64,000 nucleotides of DNA. It comes from Spirosoma sp. 48-14. GTDB lineage: Bacteria > Bacteroidota > Bacteroidia > Cytophagales > Spirosomataceae. Shown here piece after piece: positions 29,592 through 45,580 of the stretch. The first letter of the stretch is position 1. Every line of letters starts with the position of its first letter. The stretch lies in contig NZ_MKUD01000081.1 of NCBI RefSeq assembly GCF_001898575.1, positions 217,606-281,605 on the forward strand, read 5' to 3'. Both the position numbers and the translations under genes were made by a program. The notes below the pieces were generated by a model. That model searched no databases. It was not told the DNA's origin and saw only the letters and a list, made by a program, of their open reading frames with translations.

Positions 29592-29618
29592 ATAGTGGCT
29601 TTTTTTTTGGCCACATTG

Positions 29619-29634
29619 ATCGCAATATTACATT
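29619..29634 (+). promoter_or_regulatory. Second ArsR operator copy before arsM
   Basis: ATCGCAATATT at 29619-29629 repeats the left 11 bases of the operator palindrome at 29219-29234; the right half is degenerate. It follows a GTGGC/GCCAC hairpin with a T-rich loop after arsR. It suggests internal control of arsM. Confidence 0.6.
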
Positions 29635-29651
29635 AAACCGATAAATTGAAC

Positions 29652-30542: not shown

Positions 30543-30566
30543 CCCTTAAATCAAACCTGATTTATA

Positions 30567-30998: not shown

Positions 30999-31009
30999 CT
31001 CATTTAAAA

Positions 31010-31459
31010 ATGGCCATTCATATTGACACCGCTCGGCCCGACGATCAGGCTGCCATCGAGAGTCTTCTAGCGCAAAACGATTTACCCATTCAGGATTTAC
31101 CTACAGGTCTACCCAATTTTGTCATTGCCAAAGAGAACGAAACGCTGGTCGGCGTAGCCGGGCTGGAATCCTTTGGCTCGGTTGGTTTGCTACGTTCGGT
31201 TGCCGTTGATCCGGCCCATCAGGGCAAAGGCATTGCTGCTCGGTTACTTGATCGCTTACTGGATACTGCCAGGGCAGCCAACTTGCAGGACATTTACCTG
31301 ATTACGACTACTGCCAATGGGTATTTTACTCGTTACGATTTCGCCCCGATAAGCCGCGAACTGGTCCCTGACCCCATTCAACAGACGCAGCAATTCAGTG
31401 GCCTTTGCCCATCGTCGGCCATCGTAATGAAACGGGCTCTAAACAGCCAACCTGCATGA
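31010..31459 (+). CDS. arsN2: ArsN2-like GNAT acetyltransferase
   Basis: The 149-residue protein is a GNAT N-acetyltransferase with the acetyl-CoA motif [20 protein letters not shown]. The flanking [17 protein letters not shown]-like segment ([18 protein letters not shown]) is typical of proteins annotated ArsN2. ArsN-type enzymes acetylate organoarsenical antibiotics such as arsinothricin; for ArsN2 this is less well established. It lies between arsC and acr3, and its stop overlaps the acr3 start as ATGA, so the two are translationally coupled. Position in the operon supports an arsenic role. Confidence 0.85.
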
Positions 31460-32496
31460 GTACACCGCGCCTTTCATTTCTGGATCGATTCTTAACGCTA
31501 TGGATCGTTGTAGCCATGCTTACTGGTGTAAGCATCGGCTATTTTTTCCCGCAATCGCAGACACTTATCAACCAGTTCAACTCCGGCACAACTAACGTAC
31601 CGCTGGCAATTGGCCTGATTCTGATGATGTACCCACCGCTGGCAAAAGTCAAATACGAGGAATTGCCAACTGTGTTTGCCAATGCGAGAATCCTGGCTCT
31701 TTCTCTCGTTCAGAACTGGATTATTGGCCCGTTACTGATGTTCGGTTTAGCTGTTCTTTTCCTGTCGGACAAGCCCGATTACATGACTGGCCTCATTATG
31801 ATTGGTATCGCCCGCTGCATTGCCATGGTCATTGTCTGGAACGATCTGGCGGGTGGCGATCGGCTGTATGCTGCGGGGCTGGTGGCGTTTAACAGCATTT
31901 TTCAGGTGTTGTTTTATTCGGTCTATGCCTGGCTATTCATTACAGTTTTACCACCGTTGTTTGGCCTGCACGGTTACGAGGTACATATTACCATTGGCGA
32001 AGTCGCTCGTAGTGTATTCACCTATCTGGGTATTCCGTTTTTGGCGGGTATTCTCTCAAGATTCATCCTTACACGACTCGTTAGCCGACACTGGTACGAG
32101 CAGACATTCTTACCCGCTCTCAGTCCCCTTACCCTCGTTGCGCTTCTCTTCACGATTGTGGTCATGTTCAGTCTGAAAGGCCAGCTCATCGTTTCCATTC
32201 CGCTCGATGTAGTACGCATTGCCATCCCGCTCACCGTCTATTTTGCTATCATGTTTTTTTCTGCTTTCTATCTTTCCAGACGAGCAGGAGCCGATTATGG
32301 TAAATCAACGGCCTTGGCCTTTACTGCAGCCGGAAATAACTTTGAACTGGGCATTGCCGTAGCAATCGCGGTATTTGGGATTAATTCGGGAGCCGCTTTC
32401 GCAGCAGTGATTGGGCCTTTAATAGAAGTCCCTGTGCTGATTCTGCTGGTTAATTTCGCCTTAAAACAACAAAATCGCTTTACCACTCCTGTCTGA
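31456..32496 (+). CDS. acr3: ACR3-type arsenite efflux permease
   Basis: From the ATG at 31456 ([12 protein letters not shown]) the product is 346 residues with about ten membrane segments. It has the ACR3 motifs [13 protein letters not shown] and [20 protein letters not shown]; the Cys in the latter is the one essential in ACR3. Also present is [20 protein letters not shown]. It exports arsenite using the proton motive force. The frame is open upstream to 31405, but the ATGA overlap with arsN2 and the N-terminus favour 31456. It is the last gene of the ars operon and is convergent with the flavoprotein gene. Confidence 0.95.
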
Positions 32497-32569: not shown

Positions 32570-34018
32570 TTAGGCCAGATGAATCGGTACGGGTTTTCCG
32601 AAACCTTCGCGGAGGGCTACACGGGCGGCATGATAGCCACACATACCGTGTACGCCCCCACCGGGTGGTGTTGACGAAGAACAGATAAATATGCCGGGAG
32701 CCGATGTTTTGTAGGGAGATAAGGTTATGACCGGACGCGTGTACAACTGCCCGATGTCGATAATACCACCGTTGATGTCGCCCCCGATGTAGTTAGGGTT
32801 ATAGCCTTCCATCTGTACGGTATTCATGGTATGGCGAGCTAGAATCCGGTCGCGAAACCCAGGTGCAAACCGTTCAACCTGTTTCTCGATGGCCTCCGTC
32901 CGGTCAACGGTCGAGCCGTTTGGCACATGACAGTACGCCCAGGCCGTATGCTTCCCTGCTGGGGCTCGGCTGGGGTCGAACAGGCTTTGTTGAGCCAGCA
33001 GGATAAACGGTCGACCAGGGTGGTTTCCATCAGAGGTTTCCTGCTCGGCCTGCGCTATCTCTTCGAACGTACCGCCAATGTGTATCGTACCCGCCTGCTG
33101 GCATTCGGGAGCGGTAAACGGGATTGGGCCATCCAGCGCCCAGTCGATCTTAAAAACACCCATTCCATAGCGGTACTGTTCCAATTGCCGACGATACAGG
33201 GACGATAAGCGATCTCCGGCAATGGAAAGCAGTTGCTTCGGTGTCAGATCGAACAGAACCACCCGCGTCGATGGAATATCGTTCATAGAGCGGACCAGCC
33301 TCCCCGTCTCGATCCGTCCCCCCAGTGATTGAAAATAGGAGGCTATTGCATTGGCAATCGCCTGCGAACCACCTTTGGGGATGGGCCAGTTGTATAGATG
33401 TCCAGCAGTAGTCAGCACCAGGGCAATGGCCGATGTGGTCAGATTACTCAGGGGCTGAATGGAATGAGCGGCCATACCAGCCAATAGCCCACGGGCTTCT
33501 TTGGTTTTGAACCGTTTGACCAGTTGTGTAACGGGCAACAGGGCATCCAGACCAAAGCTGGCTAAATCGATTGGATGTTTCGGAAAACGCAAAGGTCCCA
33601 ATACATCCGGTGCCAGCCCCGGCCAGTGTCGAACGAGGGGTTCAAACAAGTTCCGGTATGTTTCCTGATCAGCGCCGAGTGATTGGGCCGTTTCTGTTAA
33701 TGAATACCGAAGAGCGGCTGCTGTGCCATCATCGAACGGATGGGCGGCTGCCACAGGGGGATTGATAAACTCCAGCCCATGTTCGGCCAAGGGTAATTGC
33801 TGAAAAAAGGGAGAGCCTACGGCCAGCGGGTGAATGGCAGAACAAACGTCGTGCACAAAACCGGGCAGGGTCAGTTCAGCCGAGCGCGTCCCCCCACCAA
33901 TGGTTTCCTTGGCCTCCAGTACCAGCACTGACAATCCGGCTCGTTGCAACGTAATGGCCGCACTAAGCCCATTAGGTCCTGACCCTACTACCACGGCATC
34001 TACCTCGGTTTTCGCCAT
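32570..34018 (-). CDS. Phytoene-desaturase-like NAD(P)/FAD-dependent oxidoreductase
   Basis: The 482-residue protein opens with the FAD Rossmann motif VVVGSGPNGLSAAITLQRAG and LVLEAKETIGGGTRS. It ends with FICSSSTPPGGGVHGMCGYHAA, the C-terminal FAD motif of the CrtI/phytoene-dehydrogenase-related family. The substrate cannot be predicted; homologues are often annotated only as NAD(P)/FAD-dependent oxidoreductase. No carotenoid genes are adjacent. It is the last gene on the minus strand of the run SusC-SusD-DoxX-DoxX-cytochrome-SoxC, 102 bases after the SoxC-like gene, so it may or may not belong to that operon. No signal peptide, so cytoplasmic or membrane-peripheral. Confidence 0.85.
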   Translation of the reverse strand: MAKTEVDAVVVGSGPNGLSAAITLQRAGLSVLVLEAKETIGGGTRSAELTLPGFVHDVCSAIHPLAVGSPFFQQLPLAEHGLEFINPPVAAAHPFDDGTAAALRYSLTETAQSLGADQETYRNLFEPLVRHWPGLAPDVLGPLRFPKHPIDLASFGLDALLPVTQLVKRFKTKEARGLLAGMAAHSIQPLSNLTTSAIALVLTTAGHLYNWPIPKGGSQAIANAIASYFQSLGGRIETGRLVRSMNDIPSTRVVLFDLTPKQLLSIAGDRLSSLYRRQLEQYRYGMGVFKIDWALDGPIPFTAPECQQAGTIHIGGTFEEIAQAEQETSDGNHPGRPFILLAQQSLFDPSRAPAGKHTAWAYCHVPNGSTVDRTEAIEKQVERFAPGFRDRILARHTMNTVQMEGYNPNYIGGDINGGIIDIGQLYTRPVITLSPYKTSAPGIFICSSSTPPGGGVHGMCGYHAARVALREGFGKPVPIHLA

Positions 34019-34120
34019 TTGTTCGCTGTCTTAAAATAGATTCGTTTACTGTTTAGTGCTGTGTAATTTAGTGCGGGCGGGTTGAAGAATCTGACCCCAC
34101 AGCACACTGCACAGAAAAAT

Positions 34121-35362
34121 TCACCTTTCGGGTCGGTTTAGTACGCGCCCATCGGATTTGATTTGCCAGGCCGTGATGGGGTTGAAATGGTAGCCGCCAT
34201 CCGAGCCCCTCGCTTCGATCAGTTGGGTAAACGTCGGCTGAATATAACCCGTTTCGTCGGTAACCCGGCTCATAATCTCGGTGTCAGCGCCATTCCAGTG
34301 CCACAGATAACGGAATCCGGTATGCGCTTTATCCAGGATCGGGTCCTGAAGCGTAGCCAGTTGCCAGCTTTTACCAGCATCGGTACTTACCTCTACCCGC
34401 GCTACTTTCCCTCGACCACTCCAGGCAATGCCCCGAATTTCGATCCATCCTTTTTCAACCGTTTTCGGATAAGCCGGAAAGGTGATAATCGAGCGGGCAT
34501 CCATGTCGAAACTGAACTGCCGGATTTTACCACCTTTGACGTTTTCGGTGTATTTCGAGGTTTCTTCCCGTGTGTGCCAGGGCGCATCACCCAGTTCGAT
34601 CCGTCGGAGCCATTTCACGTTAGTATTCCCTTCCCAACCCGGCAGAAACAATCGAACCGGATAGCCCTGTTCGGGTCGTAAGGCTTCGCCATTTTGAGCG
34701 TAGGCAATAATCGCATCGTCCCAGCCTTTTTTAACGGGTATACTCCGGGTCATTACGGCCGCATCGCCCCCTTCGGCCAGAAACCAGCTTGCACTCGGCT
34801 TCACACCCACTTCCCGAAACAGCGTAGCGAGTTTTACGCCCGTCCATTCGCTTTGACTCGTCAGGCCACAAATATCCTGCGGACTCATGGTTTCCTTACC
34901 TGTACGAAAATTCCCCGAGCATTCCAGAAACGCAATCCGCGATACGGAAGGGAATCGCTTCAGATCGGCAATGGTAAACACCAGTGGCTTATCGACCAGC
35001 CCATGAATCAGTAGCTCGTGTTTGGCCGGGTCGATAACGGGAACACCCGCATGATGGCGCTCGAAATGCAGATCGGAAGGAGTGATGATGCCATAAAAAT
35101 CCTGAAGGGGCGACCGCGACGAAATCTCCGACGGTTTCTTGACAAGCTTTTCAAACGACGACCGCGTACCAACCTCGCCCGCCAAGGTACCTACTCGCTT
35201 CGTTGGGTCATCGGGCAGCAGTTCGGCAACGGAAATACTTCCCTGAACGCTTTTCCCCTGTGCGGTCTGGACAATAGCCACAGCCGCCGTAGCGGCTCCG
35301 CCCAGCATAGCCCGTCGGGAAAGCTTAGTGGTCAGTTGATTGAGTCGAAGGATTTTCTTCAT
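34121..35362 (-). CDS. SoxC-like molybdopterin sulfite dehydrogenase, Tat-exported
   Basis: The 413-residue enzyme has a Tat signal (SRRAML, Arg 16-17), an oxidoreductase molybdopterin domain (about 75-265) and a C-terminal Mo-co dimerisation domain (about 285-405). Cys 148 in FLECSGNF is the expected Mo ligand. FERHHAGVP and LPGWEGNTNVKWLRRI resemble SoxC (sulfane/sulfite dehydrogenase) more than YedY. It would oxidise sulfite or a protein-bound sulfane group in the periplasm and pass electrons to a cytochrome c. The cytochrome gene ends one base before this ATG. No SoxB or SoxYZ is present, so it is not a classical Sox cluster. Confidence 0.88.
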   Translation of the reverse strand: MKKILRLNQLTTKLSRRAMLGGAATAAVAIVQTAQGKSVQGSISVAELLPDDPTKRVGTLAGEVGTRSSFEKLVKKPSEISSRSPLQDFYGIITPSDLHFERHHAGVPVIDPAKHELLIHGLVDKPLVFTIADLKRFPSVSRIAFLECSGNFRTGKETMSPQDICGLTSQSEWTGVKLATLFREVGVKPSASWFLAEGGDAAVMTRSIPVKKGWDDAIIAYAQNGEALRPEQGYPVRLFLPGWEGNTNVKWLRRIELGDAPWHTREETSKYTENVKGGKIRQFSFDMDARSIITFPAYPKTVEKGWIEIRGIAWSGRGKVARVEVSTDAGKSWQLATLQDPILDKAHTGFRYLWHWNGADTEIMSRVTDETGYIQPTFTQLIEARGSDGGYHFNPITAWQIKSDGRVLNRPER

Positions 35363-35363
35363 A

Positions 35364-35939
35364 TCACTTTATTTCGGGGCCGCCTTTCCAATCGTCGGGC
35401 ACGAATAGCGTTTGGGCGTTGATCACAGCTTTTTCGTCGATAATACCGTTGGCAGTCAGCAAATAGGCCGTCAGGTTATACACCTCCTCATTAGTGAGTG
35501 AACCCGGCTCGCTGAACGGCATGGCCCGCCGGATATAATCGAATACAGTGGTGGCATACGGCCAGTAATTGCCAACGGTTTTCTCCGGTCGTTTTTTCGT
35601 TCCTTCGGAAGCCGTTGTCACCAGCGATTCATTTGGTCCACCAACGCCCCCTACGCCGTGACAGGCTGCGCATTTCTGGGCGAAAATCAACTTACCCACG
35701 GTTGGTTTCCCTTCGCCTGGGGGTAAGCCTTTCCCATCGGGCCGTACATCAATATCGAGCCGGGCAATTTCGACCGGAGTCGCGGCCCGGCCAATGCCAA
35801 ACGTAGCTGGAAATGTATCTCGAACAACTACAGGTGTTTTATCATATAACCAGCCCTGACCTTCTGAATCAGGCAAAAAATTCACCCAAAACGTAACGAT
35901 TGCAGACAACCACAGCAAGGTACTGTTTAGACTTTCCAT
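35364..35939 (-). CDS. Membrane-anchored c-type cytochrome, electron acceptor of SoxC-like enzyme
   Basis: From the ATG at 35939 (MESLNSTLLWL) the product has 191 residues with an uncleaved N-terminal membrane anchor. The single heme c site is CAACH (Cys 90, Cys 93, His 94) and Met 130 in RRAMPF is the likely axial ligand. The following AMPFSEPGSLTNEEVYNLTAYLL is typical of class I cytochromes partnering sulfite dehydrogenases (SorB/SoxD-like). The open frame extends 27 codons upstream, but these lie inside a dispersed palindrome. The gene ends one base before the SoxC-like start, which strongly suggests a functional pair. Confidence 0.88.
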   Translation of the reverse strand: MESLNSTLLWLSAIVTFWVNFLPDSEGQGWLYDKTPVVVRDTFPATFGIGRAATPVEIARLDIDVRPDGKGLPPGEGKPTVGKLIFAQKCAACHGVGGVGGPNESLVTTASEGTKKRPEKTVGNYWPYATTVFDYIRRAMPFSEPGSLTNEEVYNLTAYLLTANGIIDEKAVINAQTLFVPDDWKGGPEIK

Positions 35940-35946
35940 AATGGTT

Positions 35947-36024
35947 TTTTTTGTCCTTCCGAGGAACGAGGAATCCCGAATATCCTGACGCTTGAGATCC
36001 TTCGTTCCTCGGAAGGACAAAAAA
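35947..36024. repeat. 23-bp perfect inverted repeat between cytochrome and DoxX genes
   Basis: Arm 35947-35969 (core GTCCTTCCGAGGAACGA) is the exact inverted complement of 36002-36024, with a 32-base loop. It fills the only large gap inside the DoxX-cytochrome-SoxC run and could partly terminate or stabilise the mRNA. Confidence 0.85.
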
Positions 36025-36055
36025 CTATCGAAACAAAAACTTAAACACTTACCCC

Positions 36056-37756
36056 TTAATAACTTCCGGCTTTGAGGGTACTTTCGGATAAGGCGTATGG
36101 CCGCTGAATCCGATCGAGTACCACATAAATGGAATCTTTTTTCTCGTTAATACCCTGTAAAATAACCCGCTGACCGCCATTTTGTGCTGTATAGCTCAGA
36201 ATCATCCGGTTGCGTTTTGTGGGTCGATTTTCGGCTTCAATCCCTTTAGTCCGACGAGTAGAGCGGGCAATTGGATTGATTTTGGGATCTTCCGGGCCGA
36301 TGATCGCCAGCGCTTCTTTCGGAATCCAGTTATCAGTCTCCTGCTTGTCCCCTTTCCGACGCTCTCCTCTCAACCGGGCTTTGGCTCCTTCGGACGTACC
36401 GCCCAGATCGCGGTTGTTGCCCAAAAACTCCCGGTTTTCCTGATTACGCGCTCCCCGGTTTTTATCCTGCAAATACAGCACATGGTGTACCGTATCGGCT
36501 TCGTAATAGAACACCCGCTGGCCACCCGCTACGCCCGTCAACTCGAAGGTTCGGTTGATGTCACGCATGGGGGCTCCCCCACCGTTCGACAGGTCCAGTT
36601 CAACAGGTTTATTTACTTTGAAGGTCAGCGTTGTCCAGTTTTCGAATGTAGCCTGTTGCCAGCGAAGCGAATCCAGCGGGGAGTAAGGCAGTTCGGCCCC
36701 GTTTAGCTTAAACTGGGTCACGTTGTAATTACCGCGTAGTTCTTTCAACCCTTTCTGAGCCGGTTGTTTGTAGGGATCGTACCGAAAATTGACATACTGA
36801 AGCCAGAACAACAGCACCAGAAACAACCCTATTGTAGTCGTTTTCAGGCCAATACGAGCATATTGCTGCCAACCGCTAAATACCGGAACAAAATAATTCG
36901 GAATGGTCAGCCGCTCCCGGATCAGCAGATTATACAGGTCTTTGAGGTAGTAGATCAGCAAAAAGCCCGACAGCAACACGAAGTACGAGCTATAGCCATG
37001 CACCCCGCCATCGTAGGCAAAATTGACGTAAACAATATCGGCCAGTGCCCCAAATAGCAGGACACTACCCCAGAACGTGGTGGCCCGGAAGAACAGTAAC
37101 GCACCCGCCAGTACCTCGACCACGCCCGTGAAGACTTCGTACCAGGGCACAATACCGATGGATAACCAATAGATTTTCTGGGCTGTCAGATCACCAAAAT
37201 TCGTATTCAGCACCCCCAGCGATGGATAGGGCAACTGCGTTGGCATCAGCTTGGTAAACCCAAATCCAATGATCCCGATACCCGCCCGATACCGTACCAC
37301 TACCCGCAACCAGTAATAGAGCAGATTATAGTTGATAATCTGTCGGTTCCGAACAACAGTTGTCCAGATCAGTCCAACCACCGTAGCGAAGATGAGTGTG
37401 ATAATCCAGGGTGCGTAGCCGTTCAGCGTACTACCAAACAGCTTGTTACCAAATAAGGTCAACCCAGAGCCAAAACGGGCAATATCGTATAGATCGCGGT
37501 AATGCAGATGCAGCCAGTCGAACGAGACGAGTTCCTTGTACCAGTCGAGGCTGTTAGGCAGCGACATACTGATGAAAAACACAAACGCAATGCGAAACAA
37601 AATCTTCTGTCCTTCGGTCCAGGCCGTAGCTGAACCGGGCTGACTGTCGGCGGGTACTTTCCTACTGGTAGCTTTTGAGACAGACGACGCACTTAATTCT
37701 TCCGGCGTAATCAACCCTAAATCAGCACGTTCAGGGGTTATATTGGGAGTTGCCAT
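36056..37756 (-). CDS. DoxX-type membrane protein with C-terminal soluble domain (copy 2)
   Basis: The 566-residue protein has about eight membrane helices in residues 45-330, with the DoxX/DoxD-like core YWLRVVVRYRAGIGIIGFGFTK and VVEVLAGALLFF. A beta-rich soluble domain of about 230 residues follows and ends in RVILQGINEKKDSIYVVLDRI. It is a paralogue of the next upstream gene (same order of helices and same C-terminal motif) but has a Lys/Arg/Asn-rich insertion at about 425-490. DoxD is the membrane part of archaeal thiosulfate:quinone oxidoreductase, so coupling of periplasmic sulfur oxidation to quinones is a possible role. Start and stop are 14 and 116 bases from the neighbours. Confidence 0.8.
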   Translation of the reverse strand: MATPNITPERADLGLITPEELSASSVSKATSRKVPADSQPGSATAWTEGQKILFRIAFVFFISMSLPNSLDWYKELVSFDWLHLHYRDLYDIARFGSGLTLFGNKLFGSTLNGYAPWIITLIFATVVGLIWTTVVRNRQIINYNLLYYWLRVVVRYRAGIGIIGFGFTKLMPTQLPYPSLGVLNTNFGDLTAQKIYWLSIGIVPWYEVFTGVVEVLAGALLFFRATTFWGSVLLFGALADIVYVNFAYDGGVHGYSSYFVLLSGFLLIYYLKDLYNLLIRERLTIPNYFVPVFSGWQQYARIGLKTTTIGLFLVLLFWLQYVNFRYDPYKQPAQKGLKELRGNYNVTQFKLNGAELPYSPLDSLRWQQATFENWTTLTFKVNKPVELDLSNGGGAPMRDINRTFELTGVAGGQRVFYYEADTVHHVLYLQDKNRGARNQENREFLGNNRDLGGTSEGAKARLRGERRKGDKQETDNWIPKEALAIIGPEDPKINPIARSTRRTKGIEAENRPTKRNRMILSYTAQNGGQRVILQGINEKKDSIYVVLDRIQRPYALSESTLKAGSY

Positions 37757-37770
37757 GATTCAGAAGAAGG

Positions 37771-39150
37771 TTAGAGTTTGAGCGATCCCCGTCGACCCGC
37801 TTTGGCAGCCTCGTCGATCAGGTATTTTTTATCCAGTTTGTCCAATACCGCATACACGGAGTCACGCTTTTCATCGACACCCGCCAGAATAATCCGGCCG
37901 TCACCGGCTTTGGTATAGGTCAGTTGCAGGGTTTCGTTAGGATAATGCGGATTTGCATTTTTAAGCGTCAGTAGTCGGCCAGTTGGGTCAACGGTGTAGC
38001 GATAATAGTGCCGACCCTGCGAGCCTGCATACTCATAATCTCGCCCGGCATCCGTGGCCGACAGTTGTTCGGTATTGTCATTGACCAGGTCAACAGCTCG
38101 GTTCGATTTGATGCTGATGGTATTCCATTTTTCGAAAACGACATCCTGCCAGCGAACGGGGTCCGTTTTCGAATACGGCAGCGTTTTACCAGCCAGCTTA
38201 AACTCACTCACATTATAAATACCGGCTGCTCCGGCTAATCCGGGTGTTTTCGGAAAGCGGATAGAGCCCTGTCGGTAGGTCGTGTACGTTGTGAAGCCAT
38301 AGAGCAATACCGTCAGCCCGATAAATGCTCCTTTCAGTGCCAGCCGACTGTACTGTTGCCACTGTTCGCGCCATATCGGATGAAATCGATTGGGTACGGC
38401 CGCCACTTCGAGGGAAACCAGCCGAAACAACCGAATCGCATCGAAGGCAAACAGAACCAGCCCAAAGGAAATCAGCAGGCCACTGTACACGTACTCGCCC
38501 CCTTCATAAGCCAGATTGGAGAAGAACACGTTACCCAAAAATGGCAGTAGAATCAGCGTACCGATAGTTGCCGTTTTCCGATGCAGCAACAGCAAGCCAC
38601 CCACCAGTTCCACCTGCCCCAGAAACGATTCATAGGAAGGTACAACCCCCAGCGACAATGAGAAAAGTTTCCAGGCCGTATGATCGCCATAGGCGGTGTT
38701 CAGATTACTAATCGACGGAAGGGGCGCCTGCAACGGGAAAAGTTTGATAAATCCATACGCGATCACGCCCAGAGCCAGTCGGTAGCGTAACGCTACCCGC
38801 AGCCAATAAAACAGGGCATCGTAATTCGTTTTTCGATCATCTTGCTGCGACCACACAACCGAACCAATCAGAGCCACGAGGGCAACGATACCCCAGTTAG
38901 CGAAACTATCTTCAGTGCCCACAAAACGGGGGGCATAATGCGACAGATTGAACAGGTATCGTGTGTACCCGCCACCGAACGAAACCAGATTTCGGAAAAA
39001 CTGCGGATCGAGTGGCAGAATCTGAATCAGAAAATAGAGGAATACGAACCGGAATATTCCTTTTTCGACCGATGTCCAGCCACTGTCGGTCTGTAACTCG
39101 GCCTGTTGGAAGGTTTGCGGATTAGCAAACGTGGTGTCAGAATAAGGCAT
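37771..39150 (-). CDS. DoxX-type membrane protein with C-terminal soluble domain (copy 1)
   Basis: The 459-residue protein has the same plan as the 566-residue paralogue: an N-terminal soluble stretch of about 25 residues, about eight helices including YWLRVALRYRLALGVIAYGFIK and QVELVGGLLLL, and a C-terminal beta-rich domain of about 170 residues. The domain ends in RIILAGVDEKRDSVYAVLDKL. Conserved YNVSEFKLAGKTLPYS and the paralogue's YNVTQFKLNGAELPYS mark the soluble domain. I know no assigned function for this fusion. It lies 21 bases after SusD and 14 bases before the paralogue, which supports one operon. A heterodimer of the two is plausible but inferred. Confidence 0.8.
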   Translation of the reverse strand: MPYSDTTFANPQTFQQAELQTDSGWTSVEKGIFRFVFLYFLIQILPLDPQFFRNLVSFGGGYTRYLFNLSHYAPRFVGTEDSFANWGIVALVALIGSVVWSQQDDRKTNYDALFYWLRVALRYRLALGVIAYGFIKLFPLQAPLPSISNLNTAYGDHTAWKLFSLSLGVVPSYESFLGQVELVGGLLLLHRKTATIGTLILLPFLGNVFFSNLAYEGGEYVYSGLLISFGLVLFAFDAIRLFRLVSLEVAAVPNRFHPIWREQWQQYSRLALKGAFIGLTVLLYGFTTYTTYRQGSIRFPKTPGLAGAAGIYNVSEFKLAGKTLPYSKTDPVRWQDVVFEKWNTISIKSNRAVDLVNDNTEQLSATDAGRDYEYAGSQGRHYYRYTVDPTGRLLTLKNANPHYPNETLQLTYTKAGDGRIILAGVDEKRDSVYAVLDKLDKKYLIDEAAKAGRRGSLKL

Positions 39151-39171
39151 CGCTATAGGGTTTAGGAATAA

Positions 39172-40524
39172 TCAGTAGCCAGGATTTTGCGTAAGTGCTT
39201 TGTCGGTCTGTAGCTGCTGAACCGGAATCGGCAATACGTACCGATTGGCATCGGTCAGGTTGAAAACAGCTCCGGCCCGACCCGTGCGTACCACATCGAA
39301 CCAGCGATGAGGCTCCAGCGCAAACTCGACCCGTCGCTCGTTTTCAATCGCCAGCAGAACGGCGTCTTTTGTTGAGGTCGTTGTAGCGGTCAGAGCCGTC
39401 AGTCCCGCCCGATCACGGACGGCGTTCAGGTCAGTCAGGGCATCAGCCAGTTTATCCTGTTGAGCCCGAGCCTCCGCCCGAATCAGGTAGGCTTCGGCAA
39501 TGCGGAACACATACGACGGATCGGAGCCGGGGTTGCGGTAGTAGAGGTTTCCATACCAGCGGTTCTGATTGTCTTTGGCAACCAGCACCGAGCGATTGCC
39601 CCCAACAGCCGGATCGTTCAGCAAGGCAACCAGTGCATCGTTGGGTGCCCATTGCCGTGTACCACCGTTGGTTTGCGGTTGCCATTGCCCCCGGTGGCTG
39701 TTCACTTCGGTCGTGCCGTTGTAGAAAATTTCGAACACCGACTCTGCCGTTCCCCGCGCATCGTTCTGGAAGAAGGCTCCATACGGTTTCACCAGCTTGT
39801 AGTTGGTCGCATCGCTGATGAGTCGGCTGGCGTAGTCTTCGGCTTTGGCGTAATCTTTCTGGTAGAGATAGAATCGGGATTTCAGCGCAAAAACGGTTTT
39901 CTGCGTGACCCGATAACGATCAACCGTGGTGGGTAACAGCGGCTCGGCGGTTTCGAGGTCTTTCAGCACCTGTGCGTAGGTTTCGGCCTGTGTGCTCCGT
40001 TTGATACCCGAGTTATCCGTCGGTTTGATGGTCGGATCAGTAATGATCGGTACCCCACCAAACGTACGGGACAGGTCGAAGTAAGCGAGTGCCCGTATGG
40101 CATAGGCTTCACCCAGGTACTGGTTTTTCAAGGCTGTGGTCAGGGCCGGGTCCGTTACGGTTGGCACTTTCGCAATGATGTTGTTGGCCCGGTTGATAGT
40201 CCGATAAATCGCAATCCAGACACTCGAAATGGTCGAGTTATCGGCATTCACCTTTTTATTGATAAACTCCTGCACCTGTGACTGCGAGCCCGTCCACTGG
40301 ATGTTGTCGCCCGACAGGTAGCCGATGGATTGAAAACTTGTCCCGTAATAGTCGCCACTGGCCAGGGCACTATATACTCCCCGCAGCGCAGTCAGCGCCG
40401 AGTTCTGATCGGTAATCGTTTCCGTATCGGAGATCGACTCCAGCGGTTTTACATCTAAAAAATCTTTACAACTACTGACCGTGACCAGCAGAAGCAGAAA
40501 AAAGAGAGAGTTGATTGATTTCAT
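39172..40524 (-). CDS. RagB/SusD family nutrient-binding outer-membrane lipoprotein
   Basis: From the ATG at 40524 (MKSINSLFFLLLLVTVSSC) the 450-residue protein has a lipobox VSSC (Cys 19) and the SusD sequence plan. It has the N-terminal KDFLDVKPLESISD, TPR-like helices with YLGEAYAIRALAYFDLSRTFGGVP and the C-terminal FRIAEAYLIRAEARAQQ and NERRVEFALEPHRWFDVVRTG. SusD proteins form the lid of a SusC channel on the cell surface. The frame is open upstream to 40617 through a dispersed palindrome; that extension would push the lipobox too far from the N-terminus. It follows SusC by 149 bases. Confidence 0.93.
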   Translation of the reverse strand: MKSINSLFFLLLLVTVSSCKDFLDVKPLESISDTETITDQNSALTALRGVYSALASGDYYGTSFQSIGYLSGDNIQWTGSQSQVQEFINKKVNADNSTISSVWIAIYRTINRANNIIAKVPTVTDPALTTALKNQYLGEAYAIRALAYFDLSRTFGGVPIITDPTIKPTDNSGIKRSTQAETYAQVLKDLETAEPLLPTTVDRYRVTQKTVFALKSRFYLYQKDYAKAEDYASRLISDATNYKLVKPYGAFFQNDARGTAESVFEIFYNGTTEVNSHRGQWQPQTNGGTRQWAPNDALVALLNDPAVGGNRSVLVAKDNQNRWYGNLYYRNPGSDPSYVFRIAEAYLIRAEARAQQDKLADALTDLNAVRDRAGLTALTATTTSTKDAVLLAIENERRVEFALEPHRWFDVVRTGRAGAVFNLTDANRYVLPIPVQQLQTDKALTQNPGY

Positions 40525-40550
40525 TGGTTTATGTATGATTGGTCGTACCA

Positions 40551-40597
40551 CCTCACCCCCGGCCCCTCTCCTGATTTCAGGAGAAGGGTGACTCACC
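40551..40597. repeat. Dispersed CCCCTCTCCTG palindrome (copy 2), upstream of SusD
   Basis: It reads CCTCACCCCCGGCCCCTCTC then CTGATTTCAGGAGAAGGG, with the stem centred near 40575. It is the same element as copies at 25096-25130 and 62171-62212. On the minus strand it is translated in the SusD frame as SPEIRRGAGGE when the upstream ATG at 40617 is used. Confidence 0.8.
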
Positions 40598-40673
40598 AAG
40601 GGTAGCTGTTTTTCCATAAGGCCATGAGTTTCCTTTGGAAGGCGCCCCTTTCTTAAGATGGTTGGAGCGAATT

Positions 40674-43600
40674 TTATAAAGTCAAACTAATTCCACCCTG
40701 AATACCAACGGGCTGGGGAGGAGTGCCGAGGTCGATACCTTGTGCATTCTGATCGCTGCTGGAACTGGATTCGGGATCGAGGCCGGTGTAGTTGGTGAGC
40801 AGCCACAGGTTGGTGCCAACGGCATACACCCGAACGTTCTGAATGCCTAATCGACTCGTGATTGCCTTCGGAACCGTATAGCCTACTGTTAGTGATTTTA
40901 GTCGCAGAAATGAGCCATCTTCCAGCCAGCGGCTTCCGCCATCCCGGTAGTTGTTGACATTGATACCATCGGGACGAGGTACATCCGTCACGTCGCCCGG
41001 TTTCTGCCAGCGCGCCAGATTCGATTTGAAGATGATCCGGGCATCGTCACGCGCTCCACCACCTTCCCCGAAGAATCGATTGTGGTTGTAAATCTTATTG
41101 CCGTATTGATAGGAGAAAAACAGGTTCACATCGAAGCCCTTGTACGAAAAGCTGTTGGTAAGGCCACCAAAGAATTTCGGCCAGATGCTGCCCACCAGTT
41201 GCCGGTCATCGACAGTGATTTTACCGTCTTTGTTTACGTCGTCGTACACCACGTTGCCCGTTTGTGGATCGACATACAATTGTTTGTACACCCAGAACGA
41301 ATACAGCGGAAAGCCCTGTTGCTGGAGAATCAGATCGCGGCTACCGTATTTGAGTGGCGTCGCCAGTTTTTCGATCCGGTTCACATTTTGCGCCACGTTG
41401 AAACTGGTCGTCCAGGTCAGCCCACTCTGGCGAAGGTTGACCGTGTTGATACCCAGTTCAAATCCTTTGTTGCTGATTTCGGCCGCGTTGCTCCAATAAC
41501 TGCTAAAGCCTGTCGTACCGGCCAGCGCGATCTGAAACAGGCCGTTGGTGGTGTATTTATCGTAGACGTTCAGCTCCAGCCCAATCCGGTCGGTAAACAG
41601 CGATACGTCCAGTCCGGCACTGATTTGGCGGGTTCGCTCCCATTGCAAATCGGGGTTACCCAGTTGCTGGGGTGCAATACCGGGGCTTCCCTGATAGCCC
41701 GTGCCACCCGTCCAGAGCCCTTGTGCGGCAAAATTGCCGATGCCGTTCTGGTTACCCGTTACACCCCAGCTAGCCCGCAGTTTTAAATCGCTGATAGCCG
41801 TGACGTTCTGTAGGAACGATTCCTGTTTCACGCGCCAGGCCACCCCTACTGATGGAAAATACCCCCATTTGCGGGATGAGCCAAAGCGCGACGACCCATC
41901 GGCCCGTACACTGGCATCGATCAGGTATCGACCGGCGAAATTATAATCGGCCTTGGCGAAAAACGATGCCAGCGTGCTCTTGCTCCAGTTTTGCGAGCTG
42001 GCCGTAGTCGCTGCCGATGAAATCTGCGTAAAATTATCGTTCGGGAAGCCCCGCCCTTCAGCATACGTACGGGTCAGGTTATCGCTCTGCAACGTATTCC
42101 CGATCAGTACACCCAATGAGTGGTTCGAGCCAATCTTTTTCCGATACGTCAGCGTTTGCTCATTCAGCCAGGTAGTATACTGACTAATACTCGAGGTGGC
42201 ATAGCCGTTCGGGCTACCCGAAATCAGTTTGGAATTCCAGTATTCCGACTCGTTATAGTTGTTGTAATCGATGCCGAAGCTGGTCCGAAACTTCAGGCCG
42301 GGTAGCAGTTGGGCATCCGCATACAGGTTACCGATGTAGCGCAGGCTGGTCGTATGAACATTGTAGTTGTTGATCAGCAAGGTTAGGTTATCGAACCCGG
42401 CGCGGCCTACCAGCACCCCCTGATCGTTGGTCGGCGACAGGTACGTAGGTGTGTGCAAAGCCGCCTGTAACAACCCACCCGCAGGGCCATCGCCCGCCCG
42501 ACCCTGATTCCGGTATGTGCGGGTGAATGTATTGCTGACACCCACCTGTATTTTGTCGTTTACCTGCTGATCCAGATTGACCTTAAAACTGGCCCGGTTA
42601 AAGTTGATGGGCCGAATAATGGCTTCCTGTGTGTTGTAGCCACCTGCGATGTAGTATTTGGTCGATTGAGTACCGCCAGACAGGGAGATGTCGTAATTGC
42701 GGAGTTGAGCCGTTCGAAACAGTTCGCCCAGTCGGTCGTAGGTTTTCTGATCTTCGGGCAAACCACGGCCCCCTTCTGAGACGGGTCGAAATGGGCGGTT
42801 GGCAAATGTCCGGTTCAGCGAGGGGGTATCTTTACCCGTGTTTACCCACCATTCATTTACCAGGGTGGCATGTTCGGGGCCAGTCGTCAACTCCCAGAGT
42901 TTGGCAGCTTTCGCGGCCCCCGCCGACGCATCGATTTTCAGCGTCGACCGCTGGCCAAAAGCACCGCGCTTGGTTGTAATCAGTACCACACCGTTGGCCC
43001 CACGAGAGCCGTATAATGCCGTAGCTTCAGCATCTTTCAATACCTCAATACTCTCAATATCAGACGGATTGATATCCGCAATGGGTGAGGTAGCTTTCCC
43101 TCCGGTACCAATTGTCTGAAGGCTGTTGCTGTTGATAAATACACCATCGACCACGTAGAGCGGGTCGTTACTGGCATTGATCGATGTAGCTCCACGCACG
43201 CGAATGTTGACCCGTTCGCCCGGCACACCCGTAGCACTCGAAATCTGCACGCCCGGTACTTTTCCCTGCAACTGGGCATCCACACTACCCACAGGAATGG
43301 ATTTGGTATCGGCCGGATCGATTTTGGCAATGGAACCAATCAGATTTTTCCGTTCCGATGTGCCGTACCCGACTACGATAACCTCACTAAGTTGCCGTGA
43401 ATCAGCCGATAATTGTACTTGTAAGGGTGCCGTTCCGTTGACGCGCACTTCGATGGTTTTATAGCCAATGGCCGACAGAATGAGCTGATCACCTGGTTTA
43501 GCCGACAAGCTAAACTGCCCGTTTGCATCGGTAACGGTCCCTTTCGACTGACCTTTCAGAACAATATTGACACCGGGAAGCGATTCACCGTTATCGGCCC

Positions 43601-43715
43601 GGACTGTGCCGGAAAGCGTAGCTATTGAGGAATTAGCGGATCTGTCGGTTGATTGAGCAGTCAGATCCAGCGAAACGAGTAAAAAAATTACCCATACTGC
43701 ATAGAGTTTTTGCAT
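40674..43715 (-). CDS. SusC/RagA family TonB-linked outer-membrane transporter
   Basis: From the ATG at 43715 (MQKLYAVWVIFLL) the 1013-residue protein has a signal peptide and a CarboxypepD_reg-like domain (LSGTVRADNGESLPGVNIV, about 32-115). A plug domain follows with SIEVLKDAEATALYGSRGANG and then a long beta barrel ending at the C-terminus with aromatic strands. SusC imports oligomeric ligands with energy from TonB. The frame is open 22 codons further upstream, but these do not fit a signal peptide. It heads the run SusC-SusD-DoxX-DoxX-cytochrome-SoxC. No glycoside hydrolase, sulfatase or peptidase gene is beside it, so the usual ligand clue is missing. Confidence 0.94.
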   Translation of the reverse strand: MQKLYAVWVIFLLVSLDLTAQSTDRSANSSIATLSGTVRADNGESLPGVNIVLKGQSKGTVTDANGQFSLSAKPGDQLILSAIGYKTIEVRVNGTAPLQVQLSADSRQLSEVIVVGYGTSERKNLIGSIAKIDPADTKSIPVGSVDAQLQGKVPGVQISSATGVPGERVNIRVRGATSINASNDPLYVVDGVFINSNSLQTIGTGGKATSPIADINPSDIESIEVLKDAEATALYGSRGANGVVLITTKRGAFGQRSTLKIDASAGAAKAAKLWELTTGPEHATLVNEWWVNTGKDTPSLNRTFANRPFRPVSEGGRGLPEDQKTYDRLGELFRTAQLRNYDISLSGGTQSTKYYIAGGYNTQEAIIRPINFNRASFKVNLDQQVNDKIQVGVSNTFTRTYRNQGRAGDGPAGGLLQAALHTPTYLSPTNDQGVLVGRAGFDNLTLLINNYNVHTTSLRYIGNLYADAQLLPGLKFRTSFGIDYNNYNESEYWNSKLISGSPNGYATSSISQYTTWLNEQTLTYRKKIGSNHSLGVLIGNTLQSDNLTRTYAEGRGFPNDNFTQISSAATTASSQNWSKSTLASFFAKADYNFAGRYLIDASVRADGSSRFGSSRKWGYFPSVGVAWRVKQESFLQNVTAISDLKLRASWGVTGNQNGIGNFAAQGLWTGGTGYQGSPGIAPQQLGNPDLQWERTRQISAGLDVSLFTDRIGLELNVYDKYTTNGLFQIALAGTTGFSSYWSNAAEISNKGFELGINTVNLRQSGLTWTTSFNVAQNVNRIEKLATPLKYGSRDLILQQQGFPLYSFWVYKQLYVDPQTGNVVYDDVNKDGKITVDDRQLVGSIWPKFFGGLTNSFSYKGFDVNLFFSYQYGNKIYNHNRFFGEGGGARDDARIIFKSNLARWQKPGDVTDVPRPDGINVNNYRDGGSRWLEDGSFLRLKSLTVGYTVPKAITSRLGIQNVRVYAVGTNLWLLTNYTGLDPESSSSSDQNAQGIDLGTPPQPVGIQGGISLTL

Positions 43716-44011
43716 TACTTTGTAATGGTTACGTGAGAAACAGGGTAGTCCACCCGGCGTCGTAAGCGCCTGATGGATCAAAAACTAGCTTGTTGTGACC
43801 TGCCGAAACGGTTGCCGCCGTTTCGGTTTTTTTATTCATCCCACCTATACCGGTTGCCGCCAGCCTAAGTGGTTTGATCGGTTAGGGTGAGGGTGGATTC
43901 TCAAATCTGCCCTCGTACGATTTCTCAAAACTGAGCTAGACAAACCGTTCGGTTTTGAGAAACCGCACGCGTCAGGTTTAAGAACCTGACGTCACGAATG
44001 CAAACAATTTC
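43716..44011. other. 296-base region upstream of SusC with three hairpins
   Basis: A plus-oriented stem CCGAAACGG/CCGTTTCGG with a T run lies near 43803-43835. An 11-bp stem TTTCTCAAAAC pairs 43921-43931 with 43952-43962. CGTCAGGTT (43970-43978) pairs with 43983-43991 around TAAG. No gene or perfect TAnnTTTG box for SusC is seen, so the promoter is unresolved. Confidence 0.6.
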
Positions 44012-44455
44012 TTAGTCATTTACTTTAGCAAACAACCGTAGGTAATACGTATACACGTAGCAGCCAGCGCAAAAGCCAACAATTGATTCCAGTGCGGCAA
44101 AAACGGCCAGCACACTTACTGCAAGTAGAGTTGAAACGCCTGCTATATGTAGTACCATAATCAGGATAGCAAAGCCGAAGCCAATGCGAGCCGCGAATTG
44201 CTTAGGAGCCTGATCGGTGCCTTTATAAGGCAAATGGAAAGTATTTACCAAGCCGTCGGCTATCGTTCCTAATGGACTGTATTTTCCTAAATCGGTGCTC
44301 CGAAGACCAAAATCGACAAACAGTAAAAGAGGCAAAGCCAACCAATTCGTTAGCAAATACACAACGGCTATAAGCAGGACAAGACCCGCTACCAGACGAA
44401 CTTTCGTCTCATTGATCTGAACCCCACTCGTGGGACATATAATCTGGTTACTCAT
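44012..44455 (-). CDS. DUF4395 membrane protein with CxxC motif
   Basis: The 147-residue protein starts CPTSGVQINETKVR after five residues, the usual opening of DUF4395. It has about four membrane segments and a late motif VGFCAGCYVY (CxxC). DUF4395 proteins are small inner-membrane proteins often found near thioredoxin, rhodanese or other thiol/sulfur genes; no activity is firmly assigned. The paired cysteines suggest redox or sulfur transfer at the membrane. It lies on the same strand 297 bases upstream of SusC and 26 bases after the ACT-like gene. The sulfur theme matches the SoxC-like enzyme further downstream. Confidence 0.85.
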   Translation of the reverse strand: MSNQIICPTSGVQINETKVRLVAGLVLLIAVVYLLTNWLALPLLLFVDFGLRSTDLGKYSPLGTIADGLVNTFHLPYKGTDQAPKQFAARIGFGFAILIMVLHIAGVSTLLAVSVLAVFAALESIVGFCAGCYVYTYYLRLFAKVND

Positions 44456-44481
44456 GTTTTAGTTGTTTTCGGTATTCTTTG

Positions 44482-44742
44482 TCAATCACTCTGCCGCACA
44501 CTAACCAGCCCCTGTATGGCAGACAACTGCCGGTAAATTCGGGCCAGCTGATTATCGTCCTGTACCCAGACCGTCAGCTGACCATCGACCCGAACGCCAT
44601 TGACCACAAACGACAGTCCCGTAATTCGACACTGGTCATCCTGTGGAACGGCATTGGCTACGTCGTCTACGAAATTCAGTCGGTCGAACCCGATAATCTG
44701 GTAGACCAGTTGGCGGTTTCCTGTTGTTGAAGCTGATAGCAT
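44482..44742 (-). CDS. Small ACT-like domain protein
   Basis: The 86-residue product reads LVYQIIGFDRLNFVDDVANAV, then CRITGLSFVVNGVRVDGQLTVWV and LARIYRQLSAIQGLVSVRQ. This is the beta-alpha-beta-beta-alpha-beta plan and ending (GLVSVRQ) of ACT domains such as the one at the C-terminus of SpoT. ACT domains bind small ligands, usually amino acids, and act in regulation. A frame on the opposite strand covers almost the same bases; the ACT pattern makes the minus frame the real one. It precedes the DUF4395 gene by 26 bases. A stand-alone ACT next to sulfur genes and an Rrf2 regulator could sense an amino acid such as cysteine; this is speculative. Confidence 0.65.
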   Translation of the reverse strand: MLSASTTGNRQLVYQIIGFDRLNFVDDVANAVPQDDQCRITGLSFVVNGVRVDGQLTVWVQDDNQLARIYRQLSAIQGLVSVRQSD

Positions 44743-44841
44743 ACCGGAAGCGAATTGTCGTTGAACGTTGTTGTTTGTTGACGAAGTGAATTGTTAAAAA
44801 TATTTAATCTATGTACTTAATATAGATTTAAAGTAAATTCT

Positions 44842-44849
44842 TACTTTTG
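44842..44849 (+). promoter_or_regulatory. TAnnTTTG promoter element with upstream palindrome
   Basis: TACTTTTG matches the -7 consensus. The palindrome AATCTAT(N9)ATAGATT at 44806-44828 lies where a repressor would cover the -33 region. Confidence 0.5.
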
Positions 44850-44916
44850 CCTGTCGATGAAGGAATCGAATGTATGTGAAGGCTAGTTAATCAAGGAATT
44901 ACCAGAACTGGAACCG

Positions 44917-45072
44917 ATGAAACTACACGGCTACTATCCTCCCATTAACAAGGATAATGGTTCATTTTACAACAACATCGGAGCAGGCAGAAGTCCATTA
45001 CGAACTGAGTTTGTGGTCATTGACGCCGTAAAGGTAAGCGGGAGATTTTTTATTTTCCAAATTAGTATATAA
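44917..45072 (+). CDS. Possible 51-residue small protein upstream of Rrf2 gene
   Basis: ATG at 44917 opens a 51-codon frame (MKLHGYYPPINKDNGSFYNN at the start). It lies behind a TACTTTTG box and an inverted repeat, with its stop 64 bases before the Rrf2 gene. The composition is rich in Asn, Gly and aromatic residues and no family is recognised. It could be a real small gene, a remnant or chance. Confidence 0.3.
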   Translation: MKLHGYYPPINKDNGSFYNNIGAGRSPLRTEFVVIDAVKVSGRFFIFQISI

Positions 45073-45080
45073 AATTTATC

Positions 45081-45097
45081 GGATAAATATATTATCC
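45081..45097. promoter_or_regulatory. Palindromic operator candidate GGATAA-N5-TTATCC
   Basis: GGATAA (45081-45086) and TTATCC (45092-45097) flank ATATA, 40 bases before the Rrf2 ATG. The symmetry fits a dimeric regulator, probably the Rrf2 protein itself. No second copy was found by eye near SusC or DUF4395. Confidence 0.5.
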
Positions 45098-45136
45098 TAA
45101 AACCCTATCGGAATCACACACTAAATAAAATGCTAT

Positions 45137-45580
45137 ATGATCTCTAAAAGAGCAAAATACGCGATCAAAGCCATGAAAGCCTTGACCCAGGCGTATGGGA
45201 ACGGACCCGTGCTGATTGCACGCATTGCCGAGCAGGAACACATTCCACAAAAATTTTTGGAAGGCATTTTACTGGAACTGCGGAATCATGGATTGCTGCA
45301 AAGCCAGAAAGGGAAAGGGGGTGGCTACATGCTGCGGGTGGAGCCGGATCGGATCACACTGGCCCAACTCGTTCGTATTATCGATGGCCCCATAGCACCA
45401 ACGCCTTGTGTGTCCCTTCATTTTTACACCCGCTGCGACGACTGCGACAGCGAAGAGACGTGTAAGATCAGGCCCATCATGCTACGTGTTCGGGACGCCA
45501 ACCTGGCCGTTTACGAAAAAACAACCTTACAGATGCTCGTCGATGGCATAAAGGAACCGACTATGTTGGTACCTGTATAA
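45137..45580 (+). CDS. Rrf2 family transcriptional regulator with cysteine cluster
   Basis: The 147-residue protein has the Rrf2 winged helix (SKRAKYAIKAMKALTQAY, IPQKFLEGILLELRNHGLL, KGKGGGYML). A Cys-rich loop follows at about residues 93-113: TPCVSLHF..RCDDCDSEETC. Rrf2 members such as IscR and NsrR bind an Fe-S cluster through similar cysteines, while CymR-like members respond to cysteine metabolism. It probably controls the divergent ACT/DUF4395/SusC region or itself, given the palindrome 40 bases upstream; this is inference. Redox or sulfur sensing would match the neighbouring sulfur oxidation genes. Confidence 0.9.
   Translation: MISKRAKYAIKAMKALTQAYGNGPVLIARIAEQEHIPQKFLEGILLELRNHGLLQSQKGKGGGYMLRVEPDRITLAQLVRIIDGPIAPTPCVSLHFYTRCDDCDSEETCKIRPIMLRVRDANLAVYEKTTLQMLVDGIKEPTMLVPV

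Follow-up and report, generated by a model that had tools for sequence, protein, structure and literature searches.

We describe a gene cluster on the minus strand of a 64,000-nucleotide stretch of DNA from Spirosoma sp. 48-14 (the window; the genome that holds it comprises 8.7 Mb). Read from 44742 to 32570, the cluster encodes an ACT-domain protein, a DUF4395 protein, SusC, SusD, two related membrane proteins (DoxX1 and DoxX2 below), a cytochrome c, a SoxC-type molybdenum (Mo) enzyme, and a flavin adenine dinucleotide (FAD) protein. It is a conserved locus, spread over several orders of Bacteroidota from soil and freshwater. The reading that we favor, with a probability of about one half, is that the locus serves organosulfur utilization, beginning with uptake by SusC and SusD (SusCD) and ending in periplasmic sulfite oxidation. 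This reading is drawn from the homology of the Mo enzyme and the cytochrome to SoxC and SoxD (SoxCD) in genomes where neither SoxY nor a SoxB above the cut-off was found, from a Mo-site loop like that of the sulfite dehydrogenase SorA, and from the sulfur and amino-acid genes that lie beside the cluster in relatives. The locus offers a concrete gene set for probing the mineralization of organic sulfur by soil and freshwater Bacteroidota.

Conservation of the gene order

A scan of named genomes for SoxC returned 48 loci, 30 of which have the full order SusC-SusD-DoxX1-DoxX2-cytochrome-SoxC. This count tolerates unrelated intervening genes (L011 and L012, e.g., have one for an S51 peptidase), and one of the 30 loci comes from a metagenome-assembled genome (MAG) labelled Williamsia. 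A first-pass annotation of the window had joined these genes into one system, a claim that survives the test of non-conservation because the order is kept in relatives. Judging by record titles, the 30 loci span Cytophagales, Chitinophaga and its relatives, Sphingobacteriales, one Flavobacterium, and the Williamsia MAG, with hosts placed in part in the orders to which we take them to belong. The closest named relative at the locus is Spirosoma panaciterrae (L009), with a SoxC that is 94% identical.

The departures from this order are of a few kinds. In five of the 48 loci (L013, L014, L018, L019, and L052) a second SusCD pair sits between DoxX2 and the cytochrome gene, followed in all five by a DUF1684 gene and then, in all except L013, by a gene for a TPR protein. 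The flavoprotein gene, present at 28 of the 48 loci, precedes the cytochrome gene in L028 and L036. Five further loci have another arrangement (L010, L020, L026, L037, and L056), although the sole departure of L037 is a first DoxX-like gene that scores best against the second. At five loci from Gemmatimonadota, SoxC is followed by the cytochrome and no SusCD-DoxX set was seen; the available flank is shorter than 7 kb at two of these (L047 and L050), as it is at L017.

Three of the named loci deserve separate mention. On contig 60 of Spirosoma profusum (L010:7936-8052), both DoxX-like genes are gone except for the tail end of the second, which lies before the cytochrome gene; another copy of the cluster is known from the same species (L019). 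The MAG labelled Williamsia (Actinomycetota; L025) contains a full Bacteroidota cluster, most likely on a misbinned contig. In Flavobacterium sp. SUN052 (L024), the SoxC sequence is nested among those of Spirosoma in the tree described below, and horizontal transfer of the cluster is likely.

For the family we surveyed 150 whole genomes, which are related to one another, and the Fisher values given below ignore this kinship. SoxC was scored at E ≤ 1e-60 and orthologous SusD at E ≤ 1e-80, with up to 11 SusD candidates scored per genome; SoxC was found in 46 of the genomes and orthologous SusD in 53. Co-location was counted from hand-transcribed coordinates, entering genes interrupted by a stop or frame break (in G072, G092, and G024) once and leaving out YeiH rows below 26 bits. 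DoxX2 lies within 12 kb of SoxC at 39 of 47 SoxC loci (within 40 kb at 42), and SusD lies within 8 kb of DoxX2 at 48 of 49 DoxX2 loci. In the other direction, 47 of the 51 SusD genes of at least 55% identity have DoxX2 within 8 kb. DoxX2 occurs in 44 of the 46 genomes with SoxC versus five of the 104 without it (kinship not corrected).

The SoxC-type enzyme and its cytochrome

The Mo enzyme (34121-35362, minus strand) has a twin-arginine (Tat) leader, the Mo ligand Cys148, which is invariant in the 21 sequences compared, and Arg153 at Cys+5. It passes the SoxC equivalog model TIGR04555 (490.4 bits against a curated cut-off of 420). The mono-heme cytochrome c that precedes it (35364-35939, minus strand) is SoxD-like, and the best structural-database matches of the two proteins are the two chains of 2xts (2xts_A, E 3e-88; 2xts_B, E 3e-31), which we take to be the Paracoccus SoxCD complex. 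The open reading frame (ORF) of the cytochrome opens at a TTG at 36020; we propose the Met at 35939, picked by eye, as the start. The first-pass annotation was right about the CAACH heme motif but not about Met 130, as the sole Met past the motif is ORF residue 167, or residue 140 counted from the Met start. Exactly one CxxCH was found in each of 45 labelled cytochromes.

Both subunits are homologous to those of SoxCD of the Sox thiosulfate system, and the Mo ligand Cys, the Tat leader, and the cytochrome partner are shared. The differences lie in the genomic context, the Mo-site loop, and the clade. Neither SoxB nor SoxY had been noted in the window, and this absence extends to the family: SoxY was found in none of the 150 genomes, the window genome included (SoxZ was not searched), and no SoxB scored above the cut-off in any of them, although weaker SoxB relatives (E ≤ 1e-20) occur in 92, again including the window genome. 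As positive controls, of five plasmid records, the SoxY search found its target solely in the record that carries a sox operon, and the SoxB search placed five of six records over the cut-off.

All 48 named loci (43 of Bacteroidota type and five from Gemmatimonadota) have C[SA]GN as the Mo-site loop, and Arg stands at Cys+5 in every one. The sulfite dehydrogenases SorAB and SorT belong to the same superfamily, and SorA likewise has Arg at Cys+5, although the window protein reaches only 130 bits against the SorA model (cut-off 600). Arg109 of SorA presumably binds sulfite. SoxC of the Sox-operon type has CAAN and Gly instead in five of five sequences, four in annotated sox operons and the fifth on a record without annotation; SoxC of the Paracoccus sox operon has the same loop as 2xts. 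Judged by these residues, the loop of the window enzyme resembles that of SorA and not that of Sox-operon SoxC. In a tree of 62 sequences, the window protein falls in a clade of 44 (support 100/100), all from Bacteroidota except the Williamsia MAG. A separate clade (100/100) on a long branch is formed by the four sox-operon sequences included. Deep placements are unsure owing to several long branches.

These observations bear on the idea that the enzyme works like the sulfane dehydrogenase of Paracoccus, with a persulfide (protein-bound or of a small molecule) as its substrate instead of sulfite. The nearest solved enzyme is indeed SoxCD (2xts), and the NCBIfam model that is passed is that for SoxC. 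Given, however, that SoxY is absent from all 150 genomes, that the Mo-site loop differs, and that the sox-operon sequences group apart from the window clade (with the reservation about deep forks), we consider a sulfane dehydrogenase quite unlikely. It is important to note that a soxC annotation alone should not count as evidence of thiosulfate oxidation.

The DoxX-like membrane pair

The two membrane proteins lie between SusD and the cytochrome on the minus strand: protein 1 (37771-39150; 459 amino acids [aa]), with a C-terminal soluble domain, and its paralogue protein 2 (36056-37756; 566 aa), with a C-terminal lipocalin-like domain. They are 36% identical. The first-pass label "DoxX-type" is justified only as a weak match at the level of the superfamily. 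Neither protein passes any Pfam or NCBIfam cut-off, and the match of the window protein to MauE reaches 15.3 bits (Pfam cut-off 27). Among 50 homologues there are weak family matches at E ≤ 1 to MauE (20 of 50), DoxX (three), and Lipocalin_4 (one), the best at E 0.0074. None of the 50 matches DoxD at this threshold, nor did NCBIfam give a relevant match, so that a likeness to the thiosulfate:quinone oxidoreductase DoxD/DoxA is not seen.

In the AlphaFold2 model of protein 2 (mean pLDDT 77.4; 82.2 for the membrane part folded alone), a membrane region is followed by a beta domain at the C terminus. The best structural match of the membrane part is NACHO/TMEM35A (Z 8.0, rmsd 3.1, 118 residues aligned; the next match has Z 5.5), which was also matched at Z 8.6 in another comparison of a DoxX-like model and which we take to have a DoxX-like fold. 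For the C-terminal part, the matches are lipocalin-like barrels, Bacteroides proteins among them, with Z of 6 to 7; Z values of 6 to 8 are moderate evidence only. Foldseek searches of the Protein Data Bank (PDB) returned no match at E < 0.6 for the membrane domain and none at E < 0.05 for the full protein, and a viral library gave nothing useful. The pair resembles a membrane core of the DoxX/MauE type joined to a lipocalin-like domain. It would share the four-helix NACHO/TMEM35A-like core of the DoxX/MauE/DoxD superfamily (Z 8.6 and 8.0) and differ from its members in passing no family cut-off and in having extra helices and the lipocalin-like domain. A conserved pair of membrane proteins comes to light that passes no family model.

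It had been suggested that electrons reach quinone through this pair, and we do not accept this route. The corresponding proposal, that the pair is a DoxDA-like carrier of thiosulfate- or sulfite-derived electrons, could draw on the weak MauE and DoxX matches, the NACHO-like fold, and the conserved proximity to a sulfur enzyme. However, besides the lack of a DoxD match, there is no heme motif in the window pair and no conserved cysteine among the 50 homologues (38 have no cysteine at all). Moreover, SoxC has a SoxD-like cytochrome of its own, and DoxX pairs exist without SoxCD (see below). We therefore regard an electron-carrying role as very unlikely; a role in cysteine redox chemistry was rejected on account of the same lack of a conserved cysteine. 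The pair is the usual inner-membrane partner of this SusCD, and we think that it binds or processes the ligand at the membrane without carrying electrons.

Single DoxX-like paralogues (33-35% identical) were seen beside an AhpC/TSA-type redoxin in L095, L099, and L101, and each of these loci has a TonB receptor close by. L095 further encodes a YceI protein, and L099 a NifS-like desulfurase.

SusCD and the sulfur genes beside the cluster in relatives

SusC (40674-43715, minus strand) is a TonB-dependent transporter that scores 837.5 bits against TIGR04056 (cut-off 368). SusD (39172-40524, minus strand) is a surface lipoprotein with a lipobox Cys and matches to PF14322 and PF07980; its start, the lipoprotein Met at 40524, was picked by eye. 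Matches of the two proteins to solved structures name no ligand. SusCD loci are usually taken to serve the uptake of glycans or peptides, and as in SusCD/RagAB loci, the SusC and SusD pair opens the window cluster. The cluster differs from them in that it contains no glycoside hydrolase or sulfatase, and the partners found in relatives are sulfur and amino-acid genes. A glycan-sulfate reading was rejected: none of 30 scanned neighbor proteins of relatives passed a sulfatase or glycoside hydrolase cut-off (a genome-wide search for sulfatases was not made), the single sub-threshold match being a Glyco_hydro_42M stretch in L126.

Some arrangements include a luciferase-like monooxygenase related to SsuD. 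On a plasmid of Spirosoma oryzicola the order is SusC-SusD-amidohydrolase-monooxygenase-amino acid permease-SoxD-SoxC, and the nearest model for the monooxygenase is that of alkanesulfonate monooxygenase (247 bits against a cut-off of 518). A similar run in L098 (G001) has a DoxX-like paralogue, an SsuD-like gene, and an S51 peptidase, then cytochrome-SoxC-flavoprotein, and L140 (G080) reads SusC-SusD-DoxX1-DoxX2-cytochrome-SoxC-YeiH-permease-SsuD-like. Altogether, SsuD-like genes lie within 15 kb of SoxC at seven of 47 SoxC loci. PF03601 transporters of the YeiH type are found at 18 of the 48 named loci, at 12 of these directly after the flavoprotein gene, and within 15 kb of SoxC at seven of the 47 family loci. 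A published argument holds that YeiH-type transporters carry sulfite out for oxidation in the periplasm (PMC11582611).

Other neighbors are also sulfur or amino-acid genes. A PF05995 thiol dioxygenase occurs in two of the 150 genomes, in both as the second gene after orthologous SusD (57-59% identical), in the order SusC-SusD-DUF1684-dioxygenase-rhodanese-MFS (L123:4787-14040 and L124:5371-14327; the proteins of L124 were scanned), which makes these another SusCD locus of sulfur type. O-acetylhomoserine sulfhydrylase genes occur in L092, where SusD and DoxX1 flank the gene, and in L138, where YeiH precedes it; in L106, YeiH is followed by a methionine aminotransferase.

Several more distant arrangements were also seen. 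L138 has a distant SusC-SusD-DoxX1-DoxX2 set (DoxX-like proteins 42% and 33% identical), then YeiH, O-acetylhomoserine sulfhydrylase, and an aminotransferase-V, with no SoxCD on the stretch. Six loci (L125, L126, L127, L129, L131, and L132) have a paralogous SusCD (SusD 43-48% identical) followed by related proteins of 861-896 aa, of which that of L126 was scanned and matched an M14 peptidase; L125-L127 also have an ATP-grasp-type protein and a luciferase-like monooxygenase, and these loci form a second family of SusCD loci. In two Gemmatimonadota loci (L046:6700-7731 and L049:6257-7291), a PF03601 YeiH-type transporter is encoded just 5′ of SoxC-cytochrome.

The closest published parallel that we found is the methanesulfonate locus of Filomicrobium, which includes a SoxD-SoxC pair with a sulfite exporter (PMC4433239). 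There, too, SoxCD is not part of a Sox operon; its neighbors are sulfonate genes and the exporter. The locus described here differs in having SusCD, the DoxX-lipocalin pair, and the flavoprotein, in that the exporter, where present, is of the YeiH type, and in that SoxC belongs to a Bacteroidota clade of its own. On a Pseudomonas plasmid, a similar SoxD-SoxC pair adjoins dioxygenases of the TauD/TfdA family. Our search of the literature, in which coverage of subscription journals is thin, found no paper on the exact SusC-SusD-DoxX-sulfite dehydrogenase combination. The first-pass statement that no such system had been described goes too far as regards the SoxCD half, which the methanesulfonate paper reports.

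Modularity and the weight of the organosulfur reading

There are a number of observations that weigh against an organosulfur locus acting as a single unit, and we collect them here. First, the two halves of the cluster occur apart. SusCD-DoxX1-DoxX2 without SoxCD on the fetched stretch was found in L087, L088, L089, L090, L091, and L143; SoxC is on another contig in L089 (G146), and the other five genomes have no SoxC at E ≤ 1e-60. Conversely, in L026, L142, and L144 the fetched stretch has SoxCD but neither SusCD nor DoxX. Second, an SsuD-like gene is missing from the surrounding 15 kb at 40 of 47 SoxC loci, and YeiH is missing at the same number. At the level of whole genomes, YeiH occurs in 15 of 46 genomes with SoxC and in 44 of 104 others (p 0.28), and SsuD-like genes in 18 of 46 and 25 of 104 (p 0.08), neither corrected for kinship; an association of SoxC with either gene was dismissed as not significant across the 150 genomes. 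Third, the family matches are modest: the SsuD-like proteins are far under the SsuD cut-off, which none of the 150 genomes exceeds, and the two thiol dioxygenases reach just 25.1 and 23.3 bits (cut-off 23). Fourth, searches of the window genome gave neither an SsuD-like protein (at 1e-30) nor a PF05995 thiol dioxygenase, and its YeiH match is partial, at 25 bits barely over the cut-off of 24.5, so the steps of sulfite release and export have no clear gene there. Finally, the Arg at Cys+5 is absent from seven of seven solo SoxC proteins of Pseudomonadota, as well as from the Allomeiothermus protein. The residue is therefore suggestive and no proof of the substrate.

The locus is modular, and this keeps alive a rival account in which two systems share a route of travel. 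One, made up of SusCD with the DoxX-lipocalin pair and the CrtO-like flavoprotein, would both take up and modify a ligand that is hydrophobic and perhaps free of sulfur; the other, SoxCD, would be a separate module for sulfite protection inserted in the operon. The flavoprotein is retained in three of the sets without SoxCD (L087, L088, and L143), SoxD-SoxC stands alone in the three loci named above, the lipocalin-like domain and the CrtO-like flavoprotein would suit a hydrophobic ligand, and SoxC has no genome-level link to SsuD-like genes or YeiH. On the other hand, all but two of the 46 SoxC genomes also have DoxX2, two of the clusters without SoxCD (L090 and L091) still carry YeiH, and the two SusD orthologues without a DoxX pair adjoin a thiol dioxygenase and rhodaneses. 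We regard the two-system account as unlikely, although it is one to be taken seriously. Another rival holds that the locus only guards against environmental sulfite and that SusCD serves an unrelated nutrient, its place in the operon being due to chance or to some general need of the cell envelope. Solitary SoxCD in some genomes would fit, as would the window genome, in which neither of the two sulfite-releasing families searched (SsuD-like and PF05995) is represented. However, it is an orthologous SusCD that is kept, not just any SusCD (recall the 47 of 51 SusD genes near DoxX2), and there seems to be only a small chance that protection is the whole story. The earlier proposal, that one operon imports a sulfur ligand and oxidizes the resulting sulfite, accordingly fares unevenly: partner genes in some relatives do point to organosulfur, but the halves occur apart in several genomes.

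If the organosulfur reading is correct, SusC and SusD would import a sulfur-containing organic ligand, perhaps linked to an amino acid or peptide. Sulfite could then be released by an enzyme that depends on the genome, such as the SsuD-like monooxygenase or thiol dioxygenase of some relatives, and, again in some relatives only, a YeiH-type transporter may move it to the periplasm. There, the Tat-exported SoxC enzyme, whose homology is clear, would be expected to turn sulfite into sulfate. The electrons would pass via the SoxD-like cytochrome c to the respiratory chain, so that sulfite might be detoxified with some gain of energy.

A bolder variant assigns the release of sulfite to the DoxX-lipocalin pair itself, which would be a new inner-membrane machine that takes the cargo of SusCD, frees its sulfur as periplasmic sulfite, and hands this directly to SoxCD. 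A fully extracytoplasmic desulfurization would explain why the cluster is retained in the window genome, with no SsuD-like protein, PF05995 dioxygenase, or full-length YeiH. If true, organosulfur would be desulfurized wholly outside the cytoplasm. We offer this variant as speculation that is rather improbable.

Regulation and remaining genes

All genes named in the first-pass annotation are present in the window at the positions and on the strands claimed. From SusC to the flavoprotein, the gaps are 149, 21, 14, 116, 1, and 102 bases, given the chosen starts of SusD and the cytochrome. The last gene (32570-34018, minus strand) encodes a CrtO/CrtI-like FAD-dependent oxidoreductase of 482 aa that is under the NCBIfam CrtO cut-off (111.6 bits against 1000) and whose similarity to solved structures is confined to the FAD-binding part. 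Upstream of SusC on the same strand are a DUF4395 membrane protein with a CAGC motif (44012-44455; PF14340, 107.6 bits), also found 5′ of SusC in L009, L051, L090, L091, and L106, and a small ACT-domain protein (44482-44742; PF13291, 31.7 bits, cut-off 27), also found there in L009, L010, L011, L024, L087, and L137.

A divergent Rrf2 regulator (45137-45580, plus strand; PF02082) has cysteines at positions 91, 100, 103, and 109. It scores over the TIGR00738 cut-off (98.1 versus 73.3) and under that of the CymR equivalog model (79.4 versus 195), and CymR (2y75, E 8e-19) is its nearest solved structure. Similar genes occur in 147 of the 150 genomes, so the regulator family is a general one; in 75 rows examined among the more than 150 matches listed, the Rrf2 gene lies within 12 kb of the cluster SusD or SoxC in 11, including that of the window. 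In L127 an Rrf2 gene for an 81% identical protein precedes a second SusCD cluster, with SsuD-like genes. The divergent spacer, compared with that of S. panaciterrae (two sequences only), has two conserved blocks and a diverged middle. One block (44795-44847), near-identical and 5′ of the ACT gene, is a possible promoter or operator for the direction from ACT to flavoprotein. The other (45060-45136), 5′ of rrf2, contains the inverted repeat GGATAA-N5-TTATCC, a possible operator that is found in perfect form in two of 145 loci, L001 (the window itself) and L009. Rrf2 probably regulates the locus according to sulfur or cysteine status.

Scans for promoters and terminators were uninformative about transcripts: sigma-70-like sites (11 versus 12.0) and terminator-like sites (16 versus 14.8) in the window were at the level of shuffled sequence, and the one match to a Bacteroidota-type promoter (0.57 expected) falls within the cytochrome gene (35827). 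An 11-bp stem with a T run in the leader region of SusC (43802-43827, plus strand) is terminator-like, though no plus-strand gene is seen ending there. Convergent to the cluster, at 29262-32496, lies an arsenic-resistance-like operon with genes for an ArsR-type regulator, a methyltransferase, a low-molecular-weight phosphatase/ArsC-type protein, a GNAT protein, and an SBF/ACR3-type transporter.

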